IMG/VR virus record: IMGVR_UViG_3300001847_000277
Span: 1 to 29,498 of that record
From: a virus
Reading direction: 5' to 3' (one strand)
Length of the DNA: 29,498 nucleotides
Part shown: positions 4,788-29,498 of the stretch, in pieces
Position numbering within the stretch: the stretch's first letter is position 1
Layout: each line of letters begins with the position of its first letter
Notes under the pieces: generated by a model
What the model saw: the letters and a program-made list of their open reading frames with translations, nothing else
What the model was told of the DNA's origin: nothing
Database searches by the model: none
Position numbers and translations under genes: made by a program

Positions 4788-6736
4788 TGGATAAAGCGAC
4801 ACAACCAAGCGACCAAGCAACAAATGCTGTAGATAAAGCCTACGGCGACCAGCAGGATATTCAAAAATACTATAAGCGGTTTCTAAACGCGAACAACGCT
4901 GTGTCGAAAAAGCACGAAACTTGGAAGATTCTTGACTTGTTTGACCGTGGACAGCAGTGGGATGGTGCGGCACTTCCACCGTGGGTACCTAAGCCAGTAA
5001 CAAACTACGTTAGATACTTCCGCACAATCAAACGTGCAAACCTTGCATCCAGTATTCCATCTGCAAATTTTTACGCAGAGCATCATAACGATGATGAAAC
5101 CGTGGCAAATTTGCAAAAAGCCTATGAGCATGTGTGGCATATGGAGAAAGTTGACCGTACCGTTCGTCGATGTATCGACAGAGCACTGCTTCAAGGAACC
5201 GCTGTAGCTTATGTGTACAATGATGATACTTATGTAGGTGGTAAATATTATGGCGAAGAAGACCCAGACAACCACCTGTACGTTGGTAAAATCTGCGTGA
5301 AACGCATTCCGAACGGTAACTTTTTTCCAGACCCGAATGCTTACAGCATTGAAGAATGTAAATATATTGAGGTTACTGAAGTCATTCCACTTAAAACGGT
5401 TAAACAAACACCAGCGTTTAAGAAGTATGCAGGGCAAAAGCTAAAAGATTATAACATCAACGACCTAGACTTTAACACCGATGCGTCTGGCGACTTCTAT
5501 ACACGGACAACAACCAAATTAAACACGTCTTTAACAAACATCAAAGGCGATGAATTGGTTACAGTGCACACGCACTGGGAGCGATACTTAAATGAAAGCG
5601 GAGCATGGCAGGTTGACGTTAGTTACTACCTCCGTAATTCGGATTTCTTCCTATTAAGAATCGAAGACGTGAAGCCAAGTGAGTACCCATTCGCAATTAT
5701 GTACGATGAAGAAGAAGAAAACGACTTCTGGGGTCGTTCAACATGTGAGGATATCCTTGAAAACAGTAAAATTGTAAACCGTACTGCGCAAACTGCGGCT
5801 ATTTTAGCTACTTTGCATCAGAATCCACAGAAAGTGGTGTGGAAAGAGTCGGGAATTAACGCACAAGAACTCGCAAAAACAGGCAACTTAGCAGGAAAGA
5901 CGATGCAGTCTAACGTTCCTGCGTCACAAGCGGTTCAATATATCCAACCACCTGACATTTCACGAGCAATGCTTGAAGTTGAAGACAGATTAAAAGCAGA
6001 TATGAAGGAAATTGTAGGTATTAACGAGGCGTACACAGGTCAATCGGTAGGTTCGTTGACTACATCCACAGGGGTAAACAGCTTAATTGAGCGCTCGTCT
6101 GTCCGTGACAAAGACAAGATGATGCAAATTGACGATTTTGTGGAGCGTATTAGCTACTTAATTGCCTTAACAATTATGTATCAATGGGATAGAGCTAGAC
6201 CTGTTATGAATATTCAAGCAAACGGACGAGCACGGTACGATGTGTTTGAACCAATCGACCAACTTACTGCGGAAAACTTAACGCTTCGTGTGCGTTCAAA
6301 TGTCTACAGTAAAGCACCGATTACACAAGAAAGTAAGCGTCAACAAGCTGACAAACTTATGCAAATGCAAGGTCAATTCCAGTACAACCCACCGATTATC
6401 ACACCTGAAGAGTGGTTAAAGTTCCAAGACTTCGACATTCAGGATGAAATCATGCAACGTATGGAGCAAGACCGTCAAAAAGCAGACCAAAATTCTGTGG
6501 ACAACTTGGCGAAAAAAGCACTAGAATTAGGTGTAATGATTTCACACATGCTTGAGCAAGGAGTTTCAATGGAAGAGGCGCAAGTTGAGGCGATGAAACA
6601 AGCGCAACAAATGATGTCTGGTGAAGAGCAAGGCGAAGGGCAAGGACAGCAACAGCCAAGCGCACCTGCGCAACCACAGCTTCCACAGGGAGCCACTGAT
6701 GCTGTAGCTATGCAAAACATGGCACAAGGGATGTGA
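4787..6736 (+). CDS. Portal protein
   Basis: The portal forms the dodecameric ring at one capsid vertex through which DNA enters and leaves, and docks terminase and the tail adaptor. The 649-aa length, the position immediately after terminase, and segments such as LDLFDRGQQWDGAALPPWVPKP and TIKRANLASSIPSANFYAEH near the N-terminus fit portal proteins of podovirus-like phages. A helical stem-like region with a conserved Asn/Arg patch (EDILENSKIVNRTAQTA) lies in the middle, and the last 50 residues are low-complexity Gln/Gly/Ala-rich. GGGGAGG precedes the ATG. The family was assigned from context and general pattern, not from a diagnostic catalytic motif. The HNH gene follows after a four-base gap. 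Confidence 0.88.
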   Translation: MDKATQPSDQATNAVDKAYGDQQDIQKYYKRFLNANNAVSKKHETWKILDLFDRGQQWDGAALPPWVPKPVTNYVRYFRTIKRANLASSIPSANFYAEHHNDDETVANLQKAYEHVWHMEKVDRTVRRCIDRALLQGTAVAYVYNDDTYVGGKYYGEEDPDNHLYVGKICVKRIPNGNFFPDPNAYSIEECKYIEVTEVIPLKTVKQTPAFKKYAGQKLKDYNINDLDFNTDASGDFYTRTTTKLNTSLTNIKGDELVTVHTHWERYLNESGAWQVDVSYYLRNSDFFLLRIEDVKPSEYPFAIMYDEEEENDFWGRSTCEDILENSKIVNRTAQTAAILATLHQNPQKVVWKESGINAQELAKTGNLAGKTMQSNVPASQAVQYIQPPDISRAMLEVEDRLKADMKEIVGINEAYTGQSVGSLTTSTGVNSLIERSSVRDKDKMMQIDDFVERISYLIALTIMYQWDRARPVMNIQANGRARYDVFEPIDQLTAENLTLRVRSNVYSKAPITQESKRQQADKLMQMQGQFQYNPPIITPEEWLKFQDFDIQDEIMQRMEQDRQKADQNSVDNLAKKALELGVMISHMLEQGVSMEEAQVEAMKQAQQMMSGEEQGEGQGQQQPSAPAQPQLPQGATDAVAMQNMAQGM

Positions 6737-6740
6737 GGAA

Positions 6741-7010
6741 ATGGCTGGAAAAAATAAGATATACGGCCCGTATAAGGGGTCTGCGAAGAACGGTGGACGT
6801 GAAATCTATGCCATTCGTAAGCCAGATGGTTCGATGACATCCACTGACCGCGCTCGTTTAGATTACGAACGTAAAGTTGGGAAGTCGCTACCAAAAGGTA
6901 CAGACGTTGACCATAAGGATAACAATAAAAGTAACAACAGTTTGAGCAATCTTCAGGCAATGTCCAAAAGTAAGAACGTTGCTAAAGGAAACCAACATCG
7001 CAAAAAGTAG
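6741..7010 (+). CDS. HNH-type nuclease-like protein
   Basis: This 89-aa protein has a C-terminal half typical of short HNH domains: DVDHKDNNKSNNSLSNL at residues 55-71, with the metal-binding His58, the Asn-Asn pair and NL, followed by SKSKN and a basic tail. The N-terminal half (IYGPYKGSAKNGGREIYAI) is strand-rich and may be a DNA-contacting element. Such proteins are found in phages either as free-standing homing endonucleases or as HNH factors that help terminase during packaging. The location between portal and scaffold, on the same strand and tightly packed, favours a packaging role but does not prove it. GAGGAA precedes the ATG. Confidence 0.78.
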   Translation: MAGKNKIYGPYKGSAKNGGREIYAIRKPDGSMTSTDRARLDYERKVGKSLPKGTDVDHKDNNKSNNSLSNLQAMSKSKNVAKGNQHRKK

Positions 7011-7020
7011 GAGGGATAAC

Positions 7021-7299
7021 ATGGCAAAGACACCAGCATGGCAACGCTCGGAAGGTAAAGACCCGAAAGGCGGCTTGAACGCCAAAGGTCGCGCCAGTTA
7101 TAACAAAGCTACTGGCGGTCATTTGAAAGCACCTGTTACCAAAGCAGAAGCGGCTAAATCACCAGAAGCGGCAAAGCGTAGGGATGCTTTTATCGCGAGA
7201 ATGGAAGGTATGAAAAAGAAATTAACCAGCGCGAAAGTAGCCAACGACCCGAACTCCCGAATCAATAAGGCACTTCGGGCTTGGGATGCAAATAAATAG
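7021..7299 (+). CDS. Small basic protein of DUF6321 type, 92 aa
   Basis: The sequence MAKTPAWQRSEGKDPKGGLN, then AKGRASY, LKAPVTK, RMEGMKKKLTSAKVANDP and NSRINKALRAWD matches by memory the conserved pattern of DUF6321 proteins. These are known from unrelated phages, including marine ones, and have no assigned function. The protein is Lys/Ala-rich and strongly basic. The ATG at 7021 follows GGAGGGATAAC. An earlier in-frame ATG at 6979 overlaps the HNH gene and has no ribosome binding site. It is the first of three consecutive basic miniproteins that all start MAK. Confidence 0.8.
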   Translation: MAKTPAWQRSEGKDPKGGLNAKGRASYNKATGGHLKAPVTKAEAAKSPEAAKRRDAFIARMEGMKKKLTSAKVANDPNSRINKALRAWDANK

Positions 7300-7313
7300 G
7301 AGGTGGTTTTACG

Positions 7314-7469
7314 ATGGCAAAAGGCATGGGCTTCAAAGCGGCGCAAGCAAACATCGCTAAGAAACAGGGTATTCCAATGAAAAACGCAGGTGCAATCCTA
7401 GCGGCGAGCACTCGTAAAGCTAGTCCTGCGGCAAAGAAAGCAAATCCAAACTTGAAGAAGGTGAAATGA
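7314..7469 (+). CDS. Small basic protein, 51 aa
   Basis: This short gene encodes 51 residues beginning MAKGMGFKAAQANIAKKQG, with a middle part AGAILAASTRKASPAAKK and the tail NPNLKKVK. AGGAGGT lies nine bases before the ATG. About a quarter of the residues are Lys or Arg and a further quarter Ala, with no acidic residue at all, so it should be a very basic, helical, probably nucleic-acid-binding or capsid-binding peptide. No named family is claimed. It sits between two other MAK-starting miniproteins, 14 bases after the first and 1 base before the next, and all three are probably made together. Confidence 0.75.
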   Translation: MAKGMGFKAAQANIAKKQGIPMKNAGAILAASTRKASPAAKKANPNLKKVK

Positions 7470-7470
7470 C

Positions 7471-7656
7471 ATGGCGAAAAAACCAGCAGGTTACGGAAAG
7501 ATGGAATCAAGTAAAAAAGACATGATGGCTGACAAAAAAGCAGGCATCAAAGAGGGCGGTAAAAAAGATACGAAGATGGACAATGCGATGATGCCAAAAG
7601 GTAAAGGTATCGGCATTATGGTTGCTATCGGAAAAGCGCCGAAGGGCAAGAAGTGA
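7471..7656 (+). CDS. Small basic Lys/Met-rich protein, 61 aa
   Basis: This 61-aa protein begins MAKKPAGYGKMESSKKDMM and ends GKAPKGKK. It is rich in Lys, Gly and Met, looks mostly disordered and would be strongly basic. GAAGAAGGTGA precedes the ATG, overlapping the end of the preceding gene. The strong terminator at 7718-7746 follows, so it ends the first rightward unit. It could be a DNA-condensing or minor virion component. No domain is recognised. Confidence 0.7.
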   Translation: MAKKPAGYGKMESSKKDMMADKKAGIKEGGKKDTKMDNAMMPKGKGIGIMVAIGKAPKGKK

Positions 7657-7717
7657 TTGACTTCTTTAGGTTTTCGGAGTAATCTAAGAGTACCTTTTGT
7701 TTGGCTGTTTTGTTAAA

Positions 7718-7746
7718 GGCGCTATGTGTAAACATAGCGTCTTTTT
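7718..7746 (+). terminator. Intrinsic terminator after the packaging genes
   Basis: The stem 7718-7726 / 7733-7741 (core CGCTATG / CATAGCG, loop TGTAAA) is followed by five T at 7742-7746. It separates the terminase-portal unit from the scaffold-capsid unit. Confidence 0.85.
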
Positions 7747-7749
7747 CTG

Positions 7750-7778
7750 TTGACAGAAATTTCGAGAAACTGTATTCT
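7750..7778 (+). promoter_or_regulatory. Vegetative-type promoter for scaffold and capsid genes
   Basis: A perfect -35 TTGACA (7750-7755), a 17-base spacer and TATTCT (7773-7778) form a good sigma-A promoter. It begins four bases after the T-tract of the preceding terminator. A leader of about 75 bases follows before the scaffold ATG at 7861. Confidence 0.7.
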
Positions 7779-7860
7779 TAGATTGTCGGGTGACTCCGCA
7801 AAAAGTCATGAACGGAAAACTTTCGCTACCCAAGCGCAAAAAGGGAAAGGGGAACTGAAT

Positions 7861-8691
7861 ATGAGTATCGAAAAATGGCTGGAAATGTACGGTGTAGAAG
7901 AAGAAGCTCCGCAGGATGAAGACGTGGAGCAAGAAGAAACTCCCGAAGATGAGCCAGAACAAGAAGATATTCAAGAGCAAGACCATGAACCAGAACAGGA
8001 ATCTGAAGAATATGAGGAAGAACCTGTTCAAGAGGAACAAAAACGGAAGCAATCCCGTGAAGAAAATGCTCGATTCGCAGAGCAACGCAGACAACAACAA
8101 CTAGAGCAAACTGTTCAAGACCGTTTGCGTCAAAGCAAAGAATACCAAACGTCCAAGCTTTTAGCTGAAATGTACGGCGTTCCTGAGTCAGAGCTTTATG
8201 ACAAGCTCTATGAGGCAAAGTTGGCACAGGAAGCAAAGAAACAGAATGTTCCAGTTGAGTTTGTTCGTGAACGTGACGAGCTTCGAAAACAACAAGAAGA
8301 ACTCCAAGAGCAGATTCAAAATATTAAGTTTCAACAATGGCAAGCTCGTATAGATGGCGAGAAAGCTGAGTTGAAGCGACAATTTAATAATCTTACCGAT
8401 ACTGACCTTGACGATGCGGCATTCTACATGTTAGATACGCTTGGTCGTACAGATTTGCCACTACAACAAGCAGTGTTTGCATTGCATGGTCATAAACTTC
8501 TTGGAACTTTGAAAGAAGTTGCAAAGAATGAAGCTCTTGCTGAAGTTAGCGGTAGAAAGAAAAGCCCCCTACCTGCTGGCGTAGGTAAGGCTCCTGATAG
8601 TGCACCTTCACTGACGAACGAAGAACGTTACATTGCGAAGAAACTCGGACTGACAGATAAAGAATACTCTAAATGGAAAGAAGGGAATTAG
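7861..8691 (+). CDS. Capsid scaffolding protein
   Basis: Scaffolding proteins guide the capsid protein into a closed shell and are then lost. This 276-aa protein is highly charged: residues about 13-60 are almost entirely Glu, Asp and Gln, followed by long coiled-coil segments (about 60-180) rich in Gln, Glu, Arg and Leu, and a compact C-terminal part (about 185-276) ending in a basic short helix, EYSKWKEGN. This layout and the location just before the capsid genes are characteristic. GGAAAGGGG lies shortly before the ATG at 7861. The open frame extends upstream to 7750 through the promoter, which is not credible as coding. It ends in TAG, two bases before the next gene. Confidence 0.82.
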   Translation: MSIEKWLEMYGVEEEAPQDEDVEQEETPEDEPEQEDIQEQDHEPEQESEEYEEEPVQEEQKRKQSREENARFAEQRRQQQLEQTVQDRLRQSKEYQTSKLLAEMYGVPESELYDKLYEAKLAQEAKKQNVPVEFVRERDELRKQQEELQEQIQNIKFQQWQARIDGEKAELKRQFNNLTDTDLDDAAFYMLDTLGRTDLPLQQAVFALHGHKLLGTLKEVAKNEALAEVSGRKKSPLPAGVGKAPDSAPSLTNEERYIAKKLGLTDKEYSKWKEGN

Positions 8692-8693
8692 AC

Positions 8694-9203
8694 ATGGCGT
8701 TTTCATTTGCTTACAGCTTGGGCGGTTCGGACGCTCCAGTAACAAAAGACTATTCAATTAGTTCTGGTACACCTGCTATCGGCGACTGTTTGGTCATTTC
8801 CGCAGGAGGTACTGGCGCAAAAGTAAGTAACACAACTGTTGTTGCTTCTAAAGTCGGTGTTTGTATGGGTCAAAACTTCTTAGGTCTTGCAACTGGTGGT
8901 ACTTATGCGGCTACTAACTCCAGTATTTACAATCCGTCATCGCTTGCAAAAATCATTTCCGACCCTAACGCAGTTTATCGCGTACCTTGGGCGGCAGATG
9001 CTTCTGCGGCAGTAATCGGTAACACTTACCTGCTTTCGAGCGCAACTGACCAATCTCTGTCTTTGACAGCAGGTGGTTCGACTTACGTTCCATTCCAACT
9101 GGTTGATTCCGACACTTCTGCACAAGCAAAAGCGGCATCTTCAACTGGTTATGGTTTCGCATTTGTAACAATCCAATCCGCTAACCGTGTGGTTCAATCC
9201 TAA
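8694..9203 (+). CDS. Probable head decoration or minor capsid protein, 169 aa
   Basis: The protein is Ser/Thr/Ala/Gly-rich and appears almost entirely beta, with no charged helices. It starts MAFSFAYSLGGSDAPV. Repeated strand-turn elements (GDCLVISAGG, SKVGVCMGQNFLGLA, GNTYLLSSATDQSLSL) fit capsid-surface decoration proteins, which are usually encoded directly before the major capsid gene as here. The start at 8694 is chosen because AGAAGGG lies eight bases upstream. An in-frame ATG at 8673 lies inside the scaffold gene. The capsid gene follows after 29 bases. The specific family could not be identified. Confidence 0.65.
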   Translation: MAFSFAYSLGGSDAPVTKDYSISSGTPAIGDCLVISAGGTGAKVSNTTVVASKVGVCMGQNFLGLATGGTYAATNSSIYNPSSLAKIISDPNAVYRVPWAADASAAVIGNTYLLSSATDQSLSLTAGGSTYVPFQLVDSDTSAQAKAASSTGYGFAFVTIQSANRVVQS

Positions 9204-9232
9204 TAATTGACTGATAAAGGAGGGAAATAACA

Positions 9233-10237
9233 ATGGCAATTCAACAAGGTAACTATGGTCGCTTACTGGAGCCAGGTCTCCGTAAGATTTTTATGGAAAC
9301 ATACCAAGAAAAACCAGAGCAATTCAGCCAAGTTTTCAACGTTACAACATCTGACAAAGCAATCGAAACAGACTTCCGTATGGGTGGTTTCGGATTGTTC
9401 GATACAAAAGAGTCATTGGGTGCTGTGAAATATCAAGACCCAACAACTACGAAAGCACTGCAATATGTTCACCAAGAGTTTGCAAGTGGTTTCACTGTAG
9501 AGCGTAAATTGATTGATGACGAGCAATACAACACCATCAACAAAATGTCCTCTGCTCTTGCTCGTGCGGCTCGCGCAACAGTTGAAACACAAGCGGCTAC
9601 CGTGCTGAACACAGCAATTCAAGGTGGTACTGGTGTGAATGCTCCAACAAACGGTTTCGATGGTCTTCCATTGATTGCATACAACCACGTTCGCTTGGAC
9701 GGTGGCTTGATGTCTAACCGTCTTGGCTATAAAACAGATGGTACAGCAGGTACAACTTCCGTTCCAGTTTACGGCGGTGTAGCTGACGGCGCATTGTCCG
9801 ACCGTAACTTGAAAGCGGCTTTGATTCAAGCACACGCACAAGTTGATGACCGTGGTATCTTGATTCAATGTAAACCAACTGTATTGGTTGTTCCTCCAGC
9901 TTTGGAGTACACAGCGCGTACATTGGTAGGTGGACAAAACCTTTCCGTTCTTGGTACTGGTGTACTTAGCGGTGGTTCATCTGATGCGACAACTGCGAAA
10001 AACACGCTTCCTGCGTTCAAAATCGTGGTTATGGACTACCTCACTTCTTCGACTAACTGGTTCATTTTTGACCCAACTTTGATTCAGTTGAACTTCTTCT
10101 GGCGTAAAAAATTGGAGTTCAAAAACATGGAAGACTTCGACACTATGCAAGCGAAGTACCGTGCATATATGCGCTTTAGCGCAGGTTACTCCGACTACCG
10201 TGGTATCGTTGGTTCACTCGGAACTGGCGCGGCGTAA
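9233..10237 (+). CDS. Major capsid protein, Mu gpT-like
   Basis: This is the shell-forming protein of the head. At 334 aa it starts MAIQQGNYGRLLEPGLRKIF. The order of elements (N-terminal arm, FRMGGFGLFDTKESLGAVKYQD, VHQEFASGFTVERKLIDDEQY, ALARAARATVETQAATVLN with a spine-helix character, GFDGLPLIAYNH, and a C-terminal YRAYMRFSAGYSDYRGIVGS) resembles the Mu-type gpT capsid family with an HK97-like fold, a call made by eye. A full AAAGGAGGG precedes the ATG. A strong terminator (10259-10292) follows the stop, which suits a gene whose product is needed in hundreds of copies. Confidence 0.9.
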   Translation: MAIQQGNYGRLLEPGLRKIFMETYQEKPEQFSQVFNVTTSDKAIETDFRMGGFGLFDTKESLGAVKYQDPTTTKALQYVHQEFASGFTVERKLIDDEQYNTINKMSSALARAARATVETQAATVLNTAIQGGTGVNAPTNGFDGLPLIAYNHVRLDGGLMSNRLGYKTDGTAGTTSVPVYGGVADGALSDRNLKAALIQAHAQVDDRGILIQCKPTVLVVPPALEYTARTLVGGQNLSVLGTGVLSGGSSDATTAKNTLPAFKIVVMDYLTSSTNWFIFDPTLIQLNFFWRKKLEFKNMEDFDTMQAKYRAYMRFSAGYSDYRGIVGSLGTGAA

Positions 10238-10258
10238 TCTTAGAAATACAATAAAGAC

Positions 10259-10292
10259 AAGCCCCTCCCTCTATTTGGTGAGGGGCTTCTTT
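10259..10292 (+). terminator. Intrinsic terminator after the major capsid gene
   Basis: AAGCCCCTC (10259-10267) pairs perfectly with GAGGGGCTT (10280-10288), followed by a short T-rich tail. Partial read-through would feed the downstream virion genes at a lower level. Confidence 0.85.
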
Positions 10293-10309
10293 AGATAAGA
10301 GGGGTAACT

Positions 10310-10483
10310 ATGGAACGAGAAAAGCCAGAATTGCTAACTCGCGGCGATGTGTTCATGGACTATTACTTCATGGAACTCATCGAAGAACAACGTAAAACCA
10401 ACGCATTACTTGAACAGTTGTTGGGTATTAAACCAGAACAACCGATTCAAAAGACGTTTTTCCAACGCTTATTCGGTAAATAA
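10310..10483 (+). CDS. Hypothetical protein, 57 aa
   Basis: This short gene encodes MEREKPELLTRGDVFMDYYF, then MELIEEQRKTNALLEQLLGI and a Phe-rich basic end FFQRLFGK. The middle looks like one amphipathic or coiled-coil helix. AGAGGGGT precedes the ATG at good spacing, and its stop overlaps the AAGGAGG ribosome binding site of the next gene. It is located between the capsid gene and the small beta-rich virion genes and could be a minor structural or assembly factor. No family is recognised. Confidence 0.72.
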   Translation: MEREKPELLTRGDVFMDYYFMELIEEQRKTNALLEQLLGIKPEQPIQKTFFQRLFGK

Positions 10484-17073: not shown

Positions 17074-19218
17074 ATGCAAGCAACGCCACAGCAACAGCAG
17101 GCATTTAAGCAAGCACAAGCTAAGAAACAGACGTACGATGTTTTAGATAAAAACATGCAGTCTTTTCAAAAAGACCAAACGCAGGGAACAGGTAAGAGGG
17201 TAGTACCTGACTTGGGGAACGTATACGCTAAGTCACAAATGCCTTATGGCGCTACTGCACAAGCTGACAAATCATTTGTCGCTTTTCAAAAAGCAACGAA
17301 TGGTGGATTGCCTGAGTTCAATCCGAATAAGCCAATTAGTATGGTTACGAAAGATAACGTTCCGAAACTCACTGCCGATAAAACGAACGGTGTAAGTAAA
17401 CCAGACGCAACAAAAGTAACGGGCAGTACATACGTTAGCCCATCACTTGGAACAAATACAAAAGGTCAAAATCAAGGCACGACAGCTCAAGGGCAGGGTC
17501 AAAATCAAGGCAACGGAACGGTCGTTAAAGATTTAACAAAGCCAGTTAGTTTCTACACGCCGCCTGCTCAGAAAAACGACGTTCAAGACCCACTAGATGT
17601 GTACAAAAACCACAACGACTGGGTGGATTCTGTCGGTGGAGACGTTGACTACAACAAATTGACTCCAGCCATGCGTAAAAACGTTGACTCGGTTAGAGGT
17701 TTAATCACAAACGACTCTCGCTTAACGCTGATGGAGATTGACCGAACAAACAAAAAGATTGCAGATATGAAAGCAAAAGGTCTCGATACAACTGCTCAAG
17801 AGAAATATCTTAAGTCTATGAACGACAATCTCGGAAGATTGAAAATGAATCCGAACTTAGATACTGGAGCAAAAGATTCGATTGCAAGTAAGTATAAAAC
17901 TCCTGCCGAGATTGCCGCAGAAGCAAGCAAAGGCGACGGAACTCCGCAAGGTGGTGCAACTGACAAACCGCAAGGTGGAGTGAATGACGAAGACACCACG
18001 AAAAAAGGTGACGGAACAGACGATGTTGTACTGGACGGCTTAAATGACAAACCGCAAGGTGGAGGCACGTCAGGAAGCAATTCTAATACACAGTCTGATA
18101 CACAAGCGTTCCTAGATGCTTACAATAAAAACTCACAAGACATGATGGACAACATCGACGCACAGGCAGAAACAGAGCGAAGAGACCTTGATAACCAAAA
18201 CTTCTTGAAAAATCTGAGCACGGTTCGTAACTTTGCTCGACGTGGCTCTTTGGATTCAGGGATGTATCAAAATGCTTTAGCTCAACAGGCTTTTGCTAAT
18301 GCGGCTAGTTTAGATAAGATTAACTCTCGCGCAGACTCAAACAAACTTAAACTGTCTAACAACTTGTTAAACAATCAGTTCCGTAACTACTCCAACAATC
18401 AACGTTTACAAACACAGCAAGACATTGCCAATAACAAAATTTCCGCAAATGAACGTATAGCAAATGCAAAACTCGACCAACAGCAAGCGAACAAAATTGC
18501 TGACATGCAAAAAGGCGTGTTCACAGAGTTGAGTAAAAACTACGACACAAGCCCACTTGCTCCAATTATGTCTGCTTACTTCTCAGGAAACTTGTCTGGT
18601 GAAGAGCTTCAAAACCAACTGAACAACTTCTACAAAACAAAACAAGTCGCACCACAAGACCAAGCAAAAATCGCCAAAGACATCGCTTTAGCTCAACAAG
18701 CGATTGAAAACTCACAATACATTGACGCAAAAACGGCTGGAGTTTTTAACGACCAAGACGGTTATATTCACGATGGAGCTGGTCAGTTAATTCTTGATGA
18801 AAAAGGAAACCCAGTCAAAACGTTAGCTTCTGCTTGGAAAGAAGCAGATTTAGGTATTAAAAGTAGACTTGCCGATGCTAGACAACAGTCCGTAATCAAT
18901 CAAGGTAAGAAAATGGCATCCGACGAAGGCTACCGTGCGGCTAACATTTCCATTAGACTGCAAAACTTGATTCGTCAAAATGCAGTCGATGTGAATAAAG
19001 CATCAAATGCCCCACTTAACTCTCAATTAAAGTTTATTAATTCGCGAATCTACGCTATTGGACAATCTGTTCAAAACGGAACACCAACACCAGAACAACA
19101 GCAAGAGTTGGCGAACTTGGCTGGTGCAGGTGTTAGTATCATTAACGACATGAAGAAAAATGCCAAAGCGACAACGGACGTGTTAAACACACAAACATCT
19201 AATGTGAAAGGTCAGTGA
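17074..19218 (+). CDS. Internal virion or ejection-type protein, 714 aa
   Basis: Podovirus ejection proteins are stored in the head and leave with the DNA to build a channel through the cell envelope. This protein is Gln/Asn/Lys-rich. The N-terminal 380 residues look disordered, with repeats such as GQNQG and DKPQGG (three PQGG copies at about 290-345). A long helical region (about 350-480) includes the pattern FARRGSLDSGMYQNALAQQA, which is common in phage internal proteins, and the C-terminal part is helical with Gln-rich linkers. The start at 17074 follows AAAGGATGTGA, and an in-frame ATG at 17056 lacks a ribosome binding site. It directly precedes an even larger gene of similar character. 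The specific family is unknown. Confidence 0.65.
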   Translation: MQATPQQQQAFKQAQAKKQTYDVLDKNMQSFQKDQTQGTGKRVVPDLGNVYAKSQMPYGATAQADKSFVAFQKATNGGLPEFNPNKPISMVTKDNVPKLTADKTNGVSKPDATKVTGSTYVSPSLGTNTKGQNQGTTAQGQGQNQGNGTVVKDLTKPVSFYTPPAQKNDVQDPLDVYKNHNDWVDSVGGDVDYNKLTPAMRKNVDSVRGLITNDSRLTLMEIDRTNKKIADMKAKGLDTTAQEKYLKSMNDNLGRLKMNPNLDTGAKDSIASKYKTPAEIAAEASKGDGTPQGGATDKPQGGVNDEDTTKKGDGTDDVVLDGLNDKPQGGGTSGSNSNTQSDTQAFLDAYNKNSQDMMDNIDAQAETERRDLDNQNFLKNLSTVRNFARRGSLDSGMYQNALAQQAFANAASLDKINSRADSNKLKLSNNLLNNQFRNYSNNQRLQTQQDIANNKISANERIANAKLDQQQANKIADMQKGVFTELSKNYDTSPLAPIMSAYFSGNLSGEELQNQLNNFYKTKQVAPQDQAKIAKDIALAQQAIENSQYIDAKTAGVFNDQDGYIHDGAGQLILDEKGNPVKTLASAWKEADLGIKSRLADARQQSVINQGKKMASDEGYRAANISIRLQNLIRQNAVDVNKASNAPLNSQLKFINSRIYAIGQSVQNGTPTPEQQQELANLAGAGVSIINDMKKNAKATTDVLNTQTSNVKGQ

Positions 19219-19223
19219 TAAAG

Positions 19224-22200
19224 ATGGGGTACAACTTAGCTCAGTTGGCAAGTGGTAAAGCACTTGCACCATACTTTGACAAAGGACTTTCACAGAAAAT
19301 TTACGATGAGGTCTCCCCAATTACGGAGACCTCTGTTCCAAACAAAGCTGTAGATGATGTCATCGCGAAGTCGATGGCAACGCCACTTACAAAAAACAAA
19401 ACAGCGCCAGCAGATGACCGTTCGCTGTTTCGTAAAGCAATAGACGTGGCAAGCGTTCCTGAAGCTCTGGTAACAAACTATCTTTACAACAAAACAAATC
19501 CTGATAGTGAAAATGACGTAAGCTCTTGGGATTTATTCAAACAAGGCTATGATAAAAACGGAATTATGGAAGGGCTTTATAATTTAGGTGAAAAATCTAA
19601 ATACGCTCCTGATATATCGAATAACTTGTTTGGTCAACAAAAAGATGCAAATGCAAATTATGACTGGGATTCATTTTTCAAAGGTCAAAAAGGTCACTTA
19701 GACCTTCGAGACATTGCCGAGTTTGCAGGCGACGTTGTTGCAGACCCACTTACTTACTTAACCTTCGGTGCAGGTTCTGTAGCTAAAGCAGGTCTCAAAG
19801 GTGCTGTTCAAGAGGGTGGCAAGGTTCTTGAAGAGCTTGCTAAAGACACAGGGCAACAAGTTAGCAGGTCTGTGGGTAAGGATGTTTTCAAAAGCGTTCC
19901 TGATAAAGTGAAGCAAGCAAGTTTAGCGGCAGGTAAGACGGAAGAAGATGCAGTCAAAGCCGCTAAAATCGCAGAACAGCGTGTACAAAATGCCGCAAAA
20001 ACAGCTCGTAAGAAAGCGCAAAACGCAATCATATCTTTAGATGTTCCGTTCACACGAGTGACTAAGCAGTTTGGTGATGTTGGTAAACTTCCGATTGTCG
20101 GTAAGTATCTAAAGTCTTCTCCAAGAACAATTACAAGACGTGGTGGAGAAGCGCTGATTGACCATTTCAACGAGTTAAAAGTTCCTGCACAGCTTCAAGC
20201 AGATATTATTGGAAAATATATAGAAGACGCAGGGCATACAGTCAACGGAACAACTCGCGAAGCTTTAGTTGATGCCGCAGGAAAACTATCTACCGATGCT
20301 TACGAAGACATCTTATCTAAGATTAAAAACATTCCTGAGAAAGACGTAACTCCTACGTTAGCTCAACATTTACAGAATACCCTAGCAGACCAAAGGTATG
20401 CCGACAGTACGCAAAAGGCTGTGAGCGATGCACTGTCTAAACTTCCACCAGACGCTACTGCAAAAGATATTGAGGAAGCGCTTACCCAAGCAAAACATGC
20501 TGATGTTTCTGCTTTTGATAAGTTGCCGCAAGATGTTGCGAACGCACTGGTTAAAGTAGGAGCTTTGGAGAAGACAGGAGTAACGCAAGACCTATACGAT
20601 GCTGTTCGACAAGCGCTCCAAACGACAGATAAAGACACTGTGTTAAAAGACCTTGCTGACCGTGCATCACAAGCAGGTAATGAAGTGGCTCGTCAAGAAG
20701 GTGTGAATTTAGATAGATTTATGTCATCTAAAGTCAGAGACGCTTTAGGTGCTAACAGCAGTCTTCCTAAGCTGGTTGATGAAGCAGACTTCTATGTTAG
20801 CCGTGCCTACGACAACATTCCTAAAGGTACTCCTAGCGTTGGTCTTCCTCCGCATGATGTTGTCATGATGAATCATGCTAGTAAGTCACCGTTACATTTA
20901 GAAATTTACAAAGCCCTCGTTGGAAAAGACCATCAGGCTCTGGTGGACGCTATTAAGGCAAATCCTAAAAAAGCGGCTAAAGCGCTTCGAGATATTATTC
21001 AAGATGTGAAAAGCGGTCAAATGTCTACATGGGATTATGGAAAAGAATATCAAAAAATTGCTGGATATCAAGACCTTACGCTGGACAGTTTGAAGTCTAT
21101 TAAAAATACACCTCAAGCGTTAAATGATGCTATGGAAGTTATCGCTCAAGGTGTTAAAGACGGTAAAGGAACGTTGGCTGACCTGCAAAACTTGGCTCGT
21201 AAAAACAACATCATTGAACGTAAGCGTATTCGCATGTTGAACAAAGCCTATGAAACAGCCGCCAACAAACTGAAATCTTTAGGCGATATTGAACCTGTGT
21301 TTTCGCGAGACCTTCAACCTGCGTTTGACGGGGTTAAATGGGTTGATGATATTGGTCGAAGTCCTTTAGGTAAATGGTTAAGTGAAGGGTTTTTATTAAA
21401 ACACTTTAACCCACGCACGTTCGGAACAAAGGATGACTGGATAAACTGGCTGGCGAAGCATATCACGGACGCAGATACAAAGCGATACAGTAATGCGAAA
21501 ATGATTGAGGGTGAGTTAGGTCACATCCAAAAGCTAAGCAAGGATATGAGCGAAACTGAAATCAGAAACGTTCAGTATCTCATTGAAAAACAGTTTCCCG
21601 AAAGTTCTTTAGATGATGCGGCTCGTAAAGAGTTGGACGACTTGTCCAAAAGTGGAAAGACTGCAGAAGAAATTGAGCAAGAGTCTTATCATATTAAAGA
21701 AGAATCTTTCATTCGAACAATGAATCACGACGCTGATGCTGTGCGACGTATGCGCAACTTGTCAGGTTCGATTGAATCCTTCTTAGATAAGCTAGGAAGA
21801 AAAGACTTGGCAGTCGGTGTACTTAGTCAAATACGAAAAGACTACTTTCCACATACCTTAAAAGTGACTGATGAAATTGTTCAGGAGCTGAGACGTAAGT
21901 ATAGTGGAGACCACACGCTCGGAGAGTTGTTAGATGATGCTGTTCGCAAATCAGACACATCTTTACGCAGTCGCCGTGCAACAATGTCGTCGTCGCAAAA
22001 GCGTAAAACGTTTCAAACGTTCGCAGATTTAGACAACTATTTAGACGAACAATATAAGATAATGAACGACGCTGGGGCTGACGAAGAAGCTAGAGCAATG
22101 GCTACGCAAAAGTTTAACGATATATCAAAGCTATTTGAACGTGATACTTTCCAAGCGTTAGCGGCTCGTGCCTTTCAATCCGTTCGTGCTCGTTCTATGC

Positions 22201-23510
22201 GTGAATTGTTTGACCAGTTCGTAGCTGATGGGGTTATTCGCAAAACAAAGCCTGCGGAGGAATACGCTTCAGATTTTGTGAAGTTGTTGCCTCATGAAAT
22301 GAGAGAGCTTGGGTTGCATCCGTCTTTGGGATTGGAGAGCGTTCTCACATCAACCAACAAAGCTGGAGAAACGATTGAGAAACTAAACAACGTTTCCGTT
22401 TACATCCACAAAGATATTTTGCACGGACTCCAGCAGATGAATCACATCTTTACTGACAAAGGGTTTAACAACGCAGTAAAGAACGTAAATGCGATTATTA
22501 ACATCTGGAAATATGGGAACACCGTATTAGTTCCTCGTCACTATATCAATAACTTTATTGGCAACATTTTCAACAATCAGATTGTCGGTGTAGATATCAA
22601 AAGCTATCGTCAATCAAAAGGATTGCTAGATAAGTTTTCTACAGACCCGAACAGCTTGAATAAAGAAGAGCAGAAACTGATTCAACAAGCGTTCGACCAC
22701 GGTATCATCGGACAGGGTTTCACAGCAGATTTTATCCGTGACAATCCGTTTCACAGACCAGACCCTAACGAGTGGTTGCTAAGTAAACTGCAAAGTATGA
22801 CGGACAGATTAGATAAGACCGCTTGGGTTAAAACGTGGCGTGGATTCGGTGAACGTGCCGATGACTTTACTCGTTTAGCGCTTTACCTCGATACATTACG
22901 CAAAACTGGTTCTATCGACATCGCGGCATCAACAGTTCGTAAGTACCTGTTTAACTACCATGAACTAACGAACACAGATAAAATCATTCGAGCGTTTGGT
23001 ATGCCGTTCTGGTCATGGACAAAAAACAACTTGCCGCTTCAGGTTATGACACTGTTGGAACAACCTCGATATATCAAAACAATCCAACAGCTAAGAGACC
23101 GTACCTTTGACGACAAAGAGTATCCTGAGTACGTCAAAGACGGTTACGTTATGGTAGATGGTAAGCCGTATCCAGTAACATTACCGATGCAGGATTTAAG
23201 CATACTTGGGGAAAAGGCAAAGTTCTTTGCATCATCTGTGAACCCACTGCTTAAAGCTCCGTTTGAATTGACGGCTAATAAAAATATGTACACAGGCTCA
23301 CCGATTGATATCGAAGCGTTTAAGAATCGCTCAAATGAAATCAGTACCGAAGCCTATTACAAATACTTGATGAAAAACTCAGGTATCGTTGGTCAAACTG
23401 CATACTCTATTTTCCCAGTAGGAAAAGATGAAAGCAGAAATATGGGCGACATTCTGGCAACGATGTTGACAGGAAACCCTTACGAAGACAAACGGCAGGT
23501 GAATAAATAA
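19224..23510 (+). CDS. Very large internal virion (ejection) protein, about 1430 aa
   Basis: This is the largest gene of the window. A segment at about 165-200 reads AEFAGDVVADPLTYLTFGAG, a pattern common in large phage internal proteins, and is followed by long helical regions rich in Ala, Lys, Asp and Leu. Near residue 1260 the sequence PFWSWTKNNLPLQ, preceded by TVRKYLFNYHELTNTDKI, resembles the conserved C-terminal segment of large ejection and polyvalent phage proteins. No lysozyme, polymerase or protease motif was found, so a structural or channel role fits best. Start: ATG at 19224 or GTG at 19215, which overlaps the preceding stop. Both have imperfect spacing from AAAGG at 19207-19211, and the ATG is preferred only slightly. 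Confidence 0.72.
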   Translation: MGYNLAQLASGKALAPYFDKGLSQKIYDEVSPITETSVPNKAVDDVIAKSMATPLTKNKTAPADDRSLFRKAIDVASVPEALVTNYLYNKTNPDSENDVSSWDLFKQGYDKNGIMEGLYNLGEKSKYAPDISNNLFGQQKDANANYDWDSFFKGQKGHLDLRDIAEFAGDVVADPLTYLTFGAGSVAKAGLKGAVQEGGKVLEELAKDTGQQVSRSVGKDVFKSVPDKVKQASLAAGKTEEDAVKAAKIAEQRVQNAAKTARKKAQNAIISLDVPFTRVTKQFGDVGKLPIVGKYLKSSPRTITRRGGEALIDHFNELKVPAQLQADIIGKYIEDAGHTVNGTTREALVDAAGKLSTDAYEDILSKIKNIPEKDVTPTLAQHLQNTLADQRYADSTQKAVSDALSKLPPDATAKDIEEALTQAKHADVSAFDKLPQDVANALVKVGALEKTGVTQDLYDAVRQALQTTDKDTVLKDLADRASQAGNEVARQEGVNLDRFMSSKVRDALGANSSLPKLVDEADFYVSRAYDNIPKGTPSVGLPPHDVVMMNHASKSPLHLEIYKALVGKDHQALVDAIKANPKKAAKALRDIIQDVKSGQMSTWDYGKEYQKIAGYQDLTLDSLKSIKNTPQALNDAMEVIAQGVKDGKGTLADLQNLARKNNIIERKRIRMLNKAYETAANKLKSLGDIEPVFSRDLQPAFDGVKWVDDIGRSPLGKWLSEGFLLKHFNPRTFGTKDDWINWLAKHITDADTKRYSNAKMIEGELGHIQKLSKDMSETEIRNVQYLIEKQFPESSLDDAARKELDDLSKSGKTAEEIEQESYHIKEESFIRTMNHDADAVRRMRNLSGSIESFLDKLGRKDLAVGVLSQIRKDYFPHTLKVTDEIVQELRRKYSGDHTLGELLDDAVRKSDTSLRSRRATMSSSQKRKTFQTFADLDNYLDEQYKIMNDAGADEEARAMATQKFNDISKLFERDTFQALAARAFQSVRARSMRELFDQFVADGVIRKTKPAEEYASDFVKLLPHEMRELGLHPSLGLESVLTSTNKAGETIEKLNNVSVYIHKDILHGLQQMNHIFTDKGFNNAVKNVNAIINIWKYGNTVLVPRHYINNFIGNIFNNQIVGVDIKSYRQSKGLLDKFSTDPNSLNKEEQKLIQQAFDHGIIGQGFTADFIRDNPFHRPDPNEWLLSKLQSMTDRLDKTAWVKTWRGFGERADDFTRLALYLDTLRKTGSIDIAASTVRKYLFNYHELTNTDKIIRAFGMPFWSWTKNNLPLQVMTLLEQPRYIKTIQQLRDRTFDDKEYPEYVKDGYVMVDGKPYPVTLPMQDLSILGEKAKFFASSVNPLLKAPFELTANKNMYTGSPIDIEAFKNRSNEISTEAYYKYLMKNSGIVGQTAYSIFPVGKDESRNMGDILATMLTGNPYEDKRQVNK

Positions 23511-23740
23511 TGGACTTCACACAGCTAGGTCAATATGGAATCGCCGCAGTTGCTTTAGGTCTTCTCGGTTACGCATTAAAATTGTTCCACGACTCGTATC
23601 AGCAAAATACAGAAGCTCTCCATCAGCTAACAACAGTGATGGAGAAGCAAGCTGTTCGAGAGCAGATGTTCATGGATATGATTTACCCAATCGCGAAGGA
23701 TACGAACGAACGTGTCCGTAGAATGGAGGAAAAAATGTGA
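23510..23740 (+). CDS. Holin-like protein of BhlA/UviB type, 76 aa
   Basis: The protein has one N-terminal hydrophobic segment (about residues 8-27, GIAAVALGLLGYALKLF) and then a charged helical or coiled-coil tail (HQLTTVMEKQAVREQMF and DTNERVRRMEEKM). This single-pass layout matches BhlA-type holins and bacteriocin-UviB-like proteins of Firmicutes. AGGTGAATAA precedes the ATG, whose A is also the last base of the preceding stop. Its own stop overlaps the GTG start of the amidase gene (GTGA). Location directly before an endolysin supports a role in cell lysis. Confidence 0.75.
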   Translation: MDFTQLGQYGIAAVALGLLGYALKLFHDSYQQNTEALHQLTTVMEKQAVREQMFMDMIYPIAKDTNERVRRMEEKM

Positions 23741-23928
23741 GTTACGACATCAAAGTTCAAATCATCGCAGACCTTCCAATGAAGCCTTATCGAAAAGGGA
23801 TGGGTAATTACGAAGGTGTTGTCGCTCATGCGACTGCGGTATGGGAAGATTCGGACGAGAATCAGTTAAAGTATTTCATCAAGAATTGGAAAGAACGTTC
23901 CGCTTTCGCACACTACTTCGTAGACTAG
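23737..23928 (+). CDS. Amino-terminal amidase fragment, 63 aa
   Basis: This is what standard translation yields from the interrupted amidase gene: 63 residues, from the GTG start behind GGAGGAAAAAAT to the amber codon. It includes the first zinc-ligand His (residue 31) and the HYFVD strand but none of the later ligands, so it should be inactive alone. The remainder of the gene (23929-24273) has no good internal ribosome binding site, and its first in-frame start-type codon is a GTG at 24043. Confidence 0.6.
   Translation: MSYDIKVQIIADLPMKPYRKGMGNYEGVVAHATAVWEDSDENQLKYFIKNWKERSAFAHYFVD
23926..23928 (+). other. In-frame amber codon within the amidase
   Basis: TAG replaces codon 64 between FVD and DSITQC. 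The context is GAC-TAG-GAT. In related amidases this position is usually an ordinary residue just after the V-D pair. One base change from Gln, Glu, Lys, Tyr, Trp, Ser or Leu codons would give TAG. Confidence 0.85.
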
Positions 23929-24272
23929 GATTCAATTACACAATGCGCAAACACGAAGTTTATTGCGTGGGCGGCAGGATACACAGCTAACCAACGCTTT
24001 GTCCATGTCGAACTTTGTCAGACCAAAGACCCAGACAAGTTCGTGCAAAGTTGGAAGCAGTACACTTGGCTGTTAGCTAAAATCTTGTTCGACAAGAAGC
24101 TTGGGGTGAAGGATGGTGACACCTTAGTGAGCCATAAGTTCTGCTCTGACACTTGGAAAGATACCGACCATCAAGACCCTATCGAATATCTAAAGTTCCA
24201 CAACAAAACGTGGCAGGATGTTATCGACTCGGTGACATGGTGGTACAAGCAAATGGAAGGAGGTCAAAAGTA

Positions 24273-24437
24273 ATGAACAAAGCCATTATTGCACCAATCA
24301 TTGCTTTAGTTATTTTGTTCTCACAGCGATTCTTCCACATTCAATGGTCTGACCAAGACTTACAAACGATTAACGACGGCGTACTATCTTTAGCTGTCCT
24401 AATTGGAATTTTCACAAACCCTAAAAAGTCCGAATAA
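24273..24437 (+). CDS. Holin, 54 aa
   Basis: A two-helix phage holin: hydrophobic segment one at about residues 4-19 (AIIAPIIALVILFSQ), a short polar loop (WSDQDLQTIND), hydrophobic segment two at about 36-48 (GVLSLAVLIGIF), and a basic tail (NPKKSE). Holins make the membrane lesions that release the endolysin. GGAGGTCAAAAG precedes the ATG, which shares a base with the stop of the amidase gene (TAATG). It is the last gene of the rightward late region and is followed by a strong terminator. It is the second holin-type gene of the cassette. Confidence 0.82.
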   Translation: MNKAIIAPIIALVILFSQRFFHIQWSDQDLQTINDGVLSLAVLIGIFTNPKKSE

Positions 24438-25692: not shown

Positions 25693-27759
25693 TCATTTCC
25701 CCTTATCCGCCCAAGTTGTGGTTGTTCTCTCCACTTCCGCAACAATCGGTACAAGAACGGTAGGAGCATCCTCCATGATTCTCTGTATTTCATGAATGTG
25801 ATGCTCTTCTCCTTTAGGAACGTCAAAAATCAATTCGTCATGTACGCACAGGACAACACTAGTCTTTAGTTTATTCTGTTGAACATACTTATCAATCAGA
25901 ATCATCTTCTCTTTCAGCATATCCGCACAGCTACCTTGAATGAGATAGTTTGCGCACTTGTAAAAGCGATTCGGATTGTTGATGTAGTAGCGGCGACCGT
26001 ACAAATTCTCAATATAACCCTGAGCATCCATTACAGTATCTACCCACTTTTGATAGCGTACGACGACAGGAAATGCTTCAGTATAACCACGATTCATCGC
26101 TTTAGCTTGTTCCAATTCAATCTCAAGCATTTGAGCCGCCATTGCATCCCCACCGCCATAGTTCCGCATGAAGTTGAATGACTTGCCAATGGAACGCCAC
26201 TTCTTAAACTCTTTTTCACTGATTGAATTGATGTCTATATCTAAAGCATGTAGCGCTTTAATGGTTGTGGCGCTATGAACATCTGTCGGTGTCCACGGTT
26301 TACCATCTTCCGTCAACCATGCCGAATCATTGTTAGCTTGTCGTTCATCCCAACGTGACAAGTCACTGAATCCTTCTCCAGTTACATAGTGCCTACACTT
26401 AAATGGCATATATGCGCGGCACATGTTTAAGTCGCCGCCGAATGGAAGTGTATAATGTGCCTGAACGCGAAGTTCAATCTGTGAAAAGTCGATGAAGTAT
26501 AGATAGTCTGACGTGGTGACAAACGCTCGGCGTGGATGGTATAGCTCTTCACCGTTCTCGTCCACAATTCTGTCTTTAGGGAATTGTTGAGCGTCTCCAC
26601 TAAAGCGTCCAGAGATAGGGTTGAACTGATTCATAGATGTGTAGAACCGTCCATCGTACTCAGATGCCTCAAGGATACGTTCAATGTAAGTCTCCAGCCA
26701 TTTCTCCATACGTCTGAGCTTAGATATTACCGTAGCCAATTCGTCACCTTCACGACCTTGTTGAGCTAAGAACTTTTTGTCAGTTGACTTAGGCTCGTAA
26801 CCTAGACGCTCCGCATATATACTTTTGATTAGCTTATGCTGACCAACATCAAAAGTTACACCTGCAAGCTGATGTGACAGCACCTTCAGGTCTTGTATGT
26901 ACTGCTCTAATTTATACTTGCACTCAAGCAGGTACTCACGATTAACTTTAATTCCACGACGCTCCATCTTGAATACGACTGGAATTAAGTCGAACTCTCT
27001 CATCATCGTGGTTAATTGCTGACGTTCTACAACGACAGGAAGTGCTTTGTCTACAAGGATTTTTGTGAGAACTACGTCCACAGCTAGATACGGTATCATG
27101 ATGTGCTGAGGCACGTCTTTGTATGTCGGTTTCGGATAGTGCCGATTCCAGTTGTTGTGTACTTCGACAACCTCCGCAGGAAGTTCCTCCGCACCGTCCA
27201 GCGCACGTTGCATCCGTCTCAACGACCAACCCACGCTTTTCAGCATTGCTATTAGAATCTTCTTGTCTGAATCCGCTTTTGCCTTCAACCACGACTTCAC
27301 GCCCTTTTCGTAATAGTCTGCCGCAGGGTCAATATACTTTTTAGATATATGCTTTAGAGCTAACGAATCTCCGCCGTCTCTTGATGATATTGCCTCAAAA
27401 GCTAGTCGAGACAAGCACATTGTGTCTCCCCAATTTTTCTTACTGTATACAAACGCATCGCCCATGACATTTGCAACCATGTGCATGTCGTATGTGGCAT
27501 TGTGTGCAAAGATTCGTTTCACCATTACTGACCAACTGCTGAGTGCTTTGAGGTTCATAAATGTCGGTTCAAACACACGAACCTTATTGTTCCAACATAC
27601 CGCCGCAAGAAACGGACGAGCCTTTTTAATATGAAGCCCATCCGTCTCTGTATCGAACGTAATAAAAGCAGGTTTATCGTTATGGATTTCTAACGTAACT
27701 TTTGTGGTGTCGTCTACGAACTCCACTTCAAACTGTTGCTTTGCAATTTCAATTTTCAT
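25693..27759 (-). CDS. Family A DNA polymerase with 3'-5' exonuclease domain
   Basis: This 688-aa enzyme is the likely phage replicase. The exonuclease domain has Exo I DTET (Asp36, Glu38), Exo II in IFAHNATYDMH and Exo III in YLAVDVV. The polymerase domain has motif A YFIDFSQIELR (Asp424), motif B R522-xxx-K526-xxx-F530-xxx-Y534-G535, and motif C VHDELIFD (His640, Asp641). All catalytic residues of both domains are present. There is no 5'-nuclease domain, as in T7-type phage enzymes. Phe530 matches the residue that disfavours dideoxynucleotides in E. coli Pol I. AGGAGGAAGTCTG precedes the ATG, whose A is shared with the stop of the ATPase gene. Confidence 0.95.
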   Translation of the reverse strand: MKIEIAKQQFEVEFVDDTTKVTLEIHNDKPAFITFDTETDGLHIKKARPFLAAVCWNNKVRVFEPTFMNLKALSSWSVMVKRIFAHNATYDMHMVANVMGDAFVYSKKNWGDTMCLSRLAFEAISSRDGGDSLALKHISKKYIDPAADYYEKGVKSWLKAKADSDKKILIAMLKSVGWSLRRMQRALDGAEELPAEVVEVHNNWNRHYPKPTYKDVPQHIMIPYLAVDVVLTKILVDKALPVVVERQQLTTMMREFDLIPVVFKMERRGIKVNREYLLECKYKLEQYIQDLKVLSHQLAGVTFDVGQHKLIKSIYAERLGYEPKSTDKKFLAQQGREGDELATVISKLRRMEKWLETYIERILEASEYDGRFYTSMNQFNPISGRFSGDAQQFPKDRIVDENGEELYHPRRAFVTTSDYLYFIDFSQIELRVQAHYTLPFGGDLNMCRAYMPFKCRHYVTGEGFSDLSRWDERQANNDSAWLTEDGKPWTPTDVHSATTIKALHALDIDINSISEKEFKKWRSIGKSFNFMRNYGGGDAMAAQMLEIELEQAKAMNRGYTEAFPVVVRYQKWVDTVMDAQGYIENLYGRRYYINNPNRFYKCANYLIQGSCADMLKEKMILIDKYVQQNKLKTSVVLCVHDELIFDVPKGEEHHIHEIQRIMEDAPTVLVPIVAEVERTTTTWADKGK

Positions 27760-29498
27760 CAGACTTCCTCCTGCGTCAGAGGTTTCATGTACAGTTTTTG
27801 CTCTGTACGTTTCACAGCATCAATCGCTTGCCTGAATCTTCGTGTAGCCTCGACACCTTCTTTAGTTACCTTAATTAAGAAGTTGGACGATAAGCTGTTG
27901 ATTGCACTGTAAAACTTATCGCGCTCCATGCCAGATATCGCTTGAAGATTGAACATAGGTACTGGCGTTGTTGCTTGGTGTACGGTTGTCACCAATATGC
28001 GATTCGTGCGAAGCAACGACTGCATAAGTTGATTCACTGAATCATTTGTTTCGTCTAACATACGACGCTCTTTCACATATTCACGAAGCCTGAATAAATC
28101 GTTGTCGTAACAGCGTCTTAGGAACTCTGCCGCCCAATCTATATGTTCTCTCTTTACGATGATGTTCTCTCCGTCATCCGTGGAGAATGTAGCCGCCGCA
28201 CACGATACGGCAATACGAGCGAGCTTTTTCCAAGCCTCCACTCCGAAAAACTTTATTCGCGAATCGAATAACTGGTTTAGTTGATTGGCTGTTTGGACAA
28301 CATACTCAGTAGCAGTGTCCTCAAAAATTACTTGGTCTTCATTACGAGACCACGCCCAATAAATTAAGTTACGATATAGTTCGGATGATAAGGCTTGCGT
28401 AGTTGGTTTATCTAAAGGTGAGGACGACTTTCCTTCCTCACGAACAATAAGCATACAAAAATCAAAACGTGCGATATCTTCATCAGAACCTACGAGGTCT
28501 AGGACAACATCGACACCAGACGGATATTCCTTGATATCCTTAGATGTACCGTTGTTCTGTACTCGTGGATTGGATAACCACAACATCCTTGTTTGTGCAG
28601 GTGCTTTACCTGCCGCAATCTTGTGTACGGTAGCTACACCTGACGAACGCATGTCCGTCAGTGTTGCCATTACTTCTCGGTGCATCCCTGACATTTCATC
28701 TAAAATGACGATTCCTTTGTTGTTGCGTGGTATCGTTCCCCATGCGATACGGAAACCGCCTGCTGGCATTTTCTCTGCACCGCCCAGTAGACCTGCTGTA
28801 GTAGCACCTTTGACGGCAAGCATATTACCAATCTTATAATGCTCCTGCAGTCGCTTAGCAGTTTCAGATTTACCTGTCCGTGACTCACCGACAATCAAGG
28901 CTTCTGGGTATCCCTTCAAGTCAACCTCATTCATCTTGAATTTGAGAGGTGAGTGGTACATAATGTTCACGGCATGAACAATCATATCAGGTGGTCGGAA
29001 CGTGCGAGTCAGTGCGTGAGCCTGTTCCACTCGTTCGCGCATCTTCTCAAACGGGTCTCCCTGAAATATCTTTAGTTGCTCATACATATCGGATGTCATT
29101 TGAAATGTATTCAAAGCGTTGTCTGAATCCTCCGACCTGTGTACAACCATGAATACACGCTGGTCATCTAAAGGGTGAGCGTAAGACTTGAAGAACACAC
29201 GGTAACGCTGACCTTCTTCCAAAGAGTGACCGACGACATACGCATACTGCTCGAAGTCTTTGAACTCGGTTTCCATGTCAGGTGTAAAAATAACCTTGTA
29301 GACTTCTTGTCTAGCTTTTACTTTGTACTCACCGTTCGGACACTTTGTGGGCATGTGGATAAACTTGTGGATAGCTTTTTTCTGATGGTCGGATGATATG
29401 TCAACAAGCTCCATGACTGTGTGTAGATTACTTTCGTCAAGTATCCAGTACCCTGAGCGATTGTTCAAAGGACAAGCGTTGCATACAGAATTGTTTGG
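27759..29498 (-). CDS. MCM-like AAA+ ATPase, probable replicative helicase (5' end outside the window)
   Basis: The visible part has Walker A GESRTGKS, Walker B IVILDE and a sensor 1 Asn in WLSNPR (about residues 194-201, 253-258 and 300 counted from a TTG at 29468). The order and spacing match MCM-type helicases and phage or prophage MCM homologues. The C-terminus has a winged-helix-like part. The reading frame stays open to the window edge, and upstream of the TTG it encodes PNNSVCNACPL, a CxxC element, so the true start and probably a zinc-binding N-terminus lie outside the window. It is directly followed by the polymerase, suggesting a helicase-polymerase pair. A non-replicative MCM-like role is possible. 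Confidence 0.78.
   Translation of the reverse strand, partial: PNNSVCNACPLNNRSGYWILDESNLHTVMELVDISSDHQKKAIHKFIHMPTKCPNGEYKVKARQEVYKVIFTPDMETEFKDFEQYAYVVGHSLEEGQRYRVFFKSYAHPLDDQRVFMVVHRSEDSDNALNTFQMTSDMYEQLKIFQGDPFEKMRERVEQAHALTRTFRPPDMIVHAVNIMYHSPLKFKMNEVDLKGYPEALIVGESRTGKSETAKRLQEHYKIGNMLAVKGATTAGLLGGAEKMPAGGFRIAWGTIPRNNKGIVILDEMSGMHREVMATLTDMRSSGVATVHKIAAGKAPAQTRMLWLSNPRVQNNGTSKDIKEYPSGVDVVLDLVGSDEDIARFDFCMLIVREEGKSSSPLDKPTTQALSSELYRNLIYWAWSRNEDQVIFEDTATEYVVQTANQLNQLFDSRIKFFGVEAWKKLARIAVSCAAATFSTDDGENIIVKREHIDWAAEFLRRCYDNDLFRLREYVKERRMLDETNDSVNQLMQSLLRTNRILVTTVHQATTPVPMFNLQAISGMERDKFYSAINSLSSNFLIKVTKEGVEATRRFRQAIDAVKRTEQKLYMKPLTQEEV

Follow-up and report, generated by a model that had tools for sequence, protein, structure and literature searches.

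A single in-frame amber codon in the Amidase_2 endolysin gene of a phage contig, probably a private nonsense lesion

Amidase_2 endolysins of Bacillota phages, such as PlyP100 and Ply511 of Listeria phages and the amidase of Phage Wrath, are the closest described relatives of the gene analyzed here, which lies in a contig of 29,498 nucleotides (IMGVR_UViG_3300001847_000277; the whole stretch is called the window below). The catalytic domain, the inferred zinc and catalytic residues and the position in a lysis block are common to all of them; the Phage Wrath amidase has 49.7% identity to the window endolysin, and the catalytic domain of PlyP100 (9htu) matches the window model with a TM score of 0.89. 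Unlike these amidases, the window endolysin has an internal TAG at codon 64 and no C-terminal domain. A TAG inside a coding frame is also found in TAG-reassigned phages (code 15, crAss-like, Lak), and an amber suppressor tRNA gene is present in about half of the code-15 phages (PMC11210395). The window differs from the code-15 phages in that it has one such TAG only, also uses TAG as a normal stop and yielded no suppressor tRNA gene. A third point of comparison is the engineered endolysin-null Staphylococcus aureus phage P954, which forms no plaques without complementation (PMC3224134). The same phenotype would be expected here if the TAG terminates translation, although the P954 lesion is a laboratory insertion, whereas that of the window is a nonsense codon.

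The interrupted endolysin gene and its lysis block

The phages closest to the window, IMGVR_UViG_3300045999_008377 (G001) and IMGVR_UViG_3300008267_000914 (G002), carry endolysins with 72-73% protein identity to that of the window, and the gene order around the endolysin is the same on both sides. The features of the locus are:

23510..23740, + strand: small gene before the endolysin, possibly lysis-related; kept in both relatives at 63-73% identity
23719..23736, + strand: endolysin ribosome binding site region, TGGAGGAAAAAAT, upstream of the GTG start; overlaps the end of the preceding gene
23737..24273, + strand: endolysin gene, Amidase_2 (N-acetylmuramoyl-L-alanine amidase); 178 codons, one internal TAG, ends with TAA at 24271-24273
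23737..23928, + strand: truncated 63-aa product if the TAG terminates; has H31 and is without E92, H133, H145 and D147
23926..23928, + strand: in-frame TAG, codon 64; predicted turn between model strands 60-62 and 67-69
24273..24437, + strand: probable holin of 54 aa; weak match to phrog_297 holin (E = 1.7e-4); kept in both relatives

Translation of the frame 23737-24273 (+) gave the TAG at 23926-23928, codon 64 of 178, as the only internal stop, the same result as in an earlier sequence-only reading of this DNA. That reading had also placed Amidase_2 features on both sides of the stop, and this was borne out: with X at the stop, Pfam PF01510 (Amidase_2) spans the TAG (residues 25-148, E = 1.3e-14; 55.1 bits against a curated cut-off of 26), and the post-TAG part by itself matches Amidase_2 (E = 2.8e-7, profile positions 52-129). 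Homology aside, the chance of 114 open codons after the TAG is P ~9e-4 at the base composition of the window; hence, given the domain match across and after the stop, the downstream frame is not open by chance. The GTG start is preceded by GGAGG and overlaps the stop of the preceding gene, and the start of 24273-24437 overlaps the endolysin TAA, so that the ribosome binding site and both overlaps proposed earlier stand. Of the two holins that had been proposed as neighbors, the identity is weak for 24273-24437 and was not upheld for 23510-23740, which has no PHROG match. The window gene is an ordinary Amidase_2 endolysin in a phage lysis block, departing from an active enzyme of this type in its frame, which is interrupted at codon 64; the host of the phage is probably a member of the Bacillota. 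Just before the lysis block, there is a 1,431-aa protein (19215-23510) that has no Pfam match and is only ~32% identical to its counterpart in G001 across half of the protein.

When the product was modeled with the TAG as a residue, a mean pLDDT of 89.4 and a pTM of 0.89 were obtained, and the best PDB matches were AmiE (3lat), AmiA (4knk) and the Listeria phage endolysin PlyP100 (9htu). The read-through product is thus modeled with confidence as an AmiE/PlyP100-type fold. From homology and the AmiE/AmiA-type fold, we take H31, H133 and D147 to be the zinc ligands and E92 and H145 to be catalytic. All five residues are invariant in a 14-sequence alignment, and the fold contains the three zinc ligands (H, H, D/C) and the catalytic Glu expected of Amidase_2, with roles assigned by homology. 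Codon 64 is placed by the model away from the inferred catalytic residues. The 63-aa product retains one of the three inferred zinc ligands and lacks all other inferred active-site residues, so it should be inactive; this part alone has no Pfam match.

The TAG column in relatives and TAG usage in the window

The endolysins of G001 and G002 have no internal stop, and both carry His at the codon-64 column. A stop was found in the matched region of 0 of about 90 homologous loci: among the 88 non-window matches, which include repeat fetches of the same contig, the column is Trp (TGG) in 81 and His in 7, and only the window has a stop. A scan of 399 genomes from the class to which Brevibacillus fulvus belongs gave 13 matches, likewise free of internal stops, and in five of these loci the column reads D, D, K, K and W. 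Judged from these alignments, the column tolerates several residues (W, H, D, K), and TAG is one transition away from TGG, its commonest codon. The earlier proposal to look for a conserved TAG in related phage amidases therefore gave a negative answer, and the conserved stop expected of programmed read-through is seen in no relative at up to 73% identity. No homologue closer to the window endolysin than 73% identity was found. The viral contig collection gave no second copy of the DNA around 23926-23928, whatever the codon there, and searches with both neighboring genes for contigs of near-identical strains reaching the endolysin returned known relatives only. Nothing direct was found in the literature on natural amber codons in endolysin genes. 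At its C-terminus the window endolysin ends at 178 aa (24255-24273), and those of G001 and G002 run 46 codons further; this extension holds a C-terminal repeat, present in two copies in locus L007 and possibly cell-wall-binding, of which no trace occurs elsewhere in the window.

TAG terminates six of the 34 called genes of the window (terL, the HNH gene, the scaffold-like gene and three others), which extends by three genes what the sequence-only reading had listed, and an in-frame TAG occurs once in the 34 genes. The relatives use TGA or TAA, aligned with the window TAG, to end terL, the HNH gene and 6979-7299, and terL read through its TAG would run past the start of the next gene. In-frame TAGs can mark recoding, as with code 15 in crAss-like phages (PMC9523058; PMC11210395), but a phage-wide use of TAG as an amino acid, at least in late genes, would show as many TAG-interrupted genes and no TAG terminators. 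Since TAG terminates six genes, general recoding, already considered unlikely in the sequence-only reading, is excluded.

Neither ARAGORN nor the Rfam model RF00005 detected a tRNA gene in the three sequences searched, namely the window, G001 (44 kb) and G002 (31 kb), and the suggested search for an amber suppressor tRNA was thus negative in each. The window is a genome fragment of about two thirds the length of G001. The two ends of G001, a record of 44,010 bases classed as linear, share 126 identical bases (L088:1-129 and the end of L090), so that G001 is probably complete and represents a full genome from this group of phages; a tRNA gene in the part of the genome missing from the window is unlikely. 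The 90 nt after the TAG fold no better than shuffled sequences (z = -1.03), so that no stimulating structure was recognized over this distance. An intron or other RNA element in the endolysin was also considered and rejected, as there is no Rfam match in the window and the frame aligns to its relatives without insertion.

Divergence around the stop and assembly quality

Before the TAG, the differences from the relatives number 12/10/45 at codon positions 1/2/3, and after it they number 20/21/61. Third positions thus dominate in both parts, with 45 of the 67 differences before the TAG and 61 of the 102 after it, and synonymous divergence is saturated in the window-relative pairs. At conserved columns the window departs in 7 of 52 cases after the TAG and in 1 of 24 before it, a weak test (Fisher p = 0.42) that agrees with the earlier statement that no further decay is present. 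The lack of a significant excess of departures, together with third-position divergence on both sides, indicates a stop that is of recent origin or does not terminate in every case. These results are compatible with a young stop, with an error and with routine read-through of the TAG.

A contig from another metagenome, IMGVR_UViG_3300047400_000025 (L107), aligns along its full length of 5,263 bases with window 5080-10342 at 99.85% identity, and ends short of the endolysin. Of the differences between both, all seven in coding sequence are synonymous and one is intergenic, a pattern that random errors would give with P ~6e-5. By its sequence, L107 is the same phage species in another sample, and the exclusively synonymous or intergenic differences imply that the assembly is good over 5080-10342 and that the population is under purifying selection. 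Random coding substitutions in the window yield a stop in ~4.7% of cases; hence, a lone nonsense change among many screened contigs needs no special mechanism.

Origin of the TAG

The reading that we prefer, with a probability of about 0.83, is that the TAG is a private nonsense lesion of a single codon that serves no regulatory purpose, either a recent mutation or a base error. We observed a stop with an intact frame on both sides, absent from the relatives and one transition from the commonest codon of the column; the recency of the lesion is what these data suggest. Of the options that the sequence-only reading had left, mutation and sequence error both remain and programmed read-through gained no support; its rejection of recoding holds. 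Between the two that remain, a recent point mutation is slightly the likelier over a base error in the metagenome. In the proposed course of events, a point mutation (or base error) turned codon 64 into TAG in an otherwise intact endolysin. If the TAG is real and unsuppressed, translation would end after 63 residues and no active amidase would be made; the genome bearing it would be unable to lyse the host alone, and would persist only with the help of intact phage in the same cell, or as a defective genome that has arisen only recently. As an endolysin-null phage of a Gram-positive host is plaqueless unless complemented (PMC3224134), a TAG that is real and not suppressed would be unlikely to endure in a free-living phage lineage. 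In one version of the preferred reading, the TAG came from assembly or base calling, and the phage itself encodes an intact endolysin; this is a serious possibility, though it falls short of even odds. The remaining major genes are uninterrupted and collinear with those of the relatives, the endolysin shows no other sign of decay, and an endolysin is normally required for the release of progeny from a Gram-positive host (PMC3224134). Against it, the 5.3-kb overlap with L107 contains no nonsynonymous discrepancy; this limits the scope for error but leaves room for a single one at a distance of 14 kb. The purged population and the low error rate at this overlap make a lethal mutation and an error both somewhat less expected.

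The intact downstream frame is also what would be seen if a low level of full-length endolysin were made across a real TAG, through an amber suppressor tRNA of the host or through leaky termination, and it is the only positive evidence for this alternative. The read-through product is predicted to fold well, and codon 64 is placed in a turn. Given the tolerance of the column, several inserted residues would probably be accepted, and near-cognate misreading of UAG, e.g., by tRNA-Gln, has been reported in Escherichia coli (PMC5289835). However, leakage is said to be lower at UAG than at UGA (PMC5289835), neither the window, nor G002, nor the apparently complete G001 has a tRNA gene, the structure after the codon is not significant and the TAG is kept in no relative, so that we consider read-through unlikely. 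The same findings weigh on the more specific proposal of the sequence-only reading, in which programmed read-through keeps endolysin low; that the TAG is fixed in the phage species and that suppression or leakage delays lysis in this way is quite improbable. A split into two genes, or a short functional product initiated separately after the TAG, is more doubtful still. ORFs of 63 and 76 aa can indeed be listed on either side of the TAG, but all the homologues form one continuous frame, none being seen as two genes with their own starts; the first common start after the TAG, GTG 24043, has no ribosome binding site recognizable by eye and skips E92, and the 63-aa part, as noted above, has no domain match of its own. 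If the TAG were fixed and read through, the locus would show in nature how leakage at a stop codon can time lysis; on present evidence, one assembled contig carries one nonsense lesion, and a lone in-frame stop of this kind calls for relatives and reads before a mechanism is proposed.

At the other end of the contig, the gene 27759-29498 (- strand), which is cut by the window end, matches the MCM P-loop helicase domain (PF00493, E = 1.6e-8). It adjoins a gene for a family A DNA polymerase, and an MCM-type match is unusual for a phage of such size.
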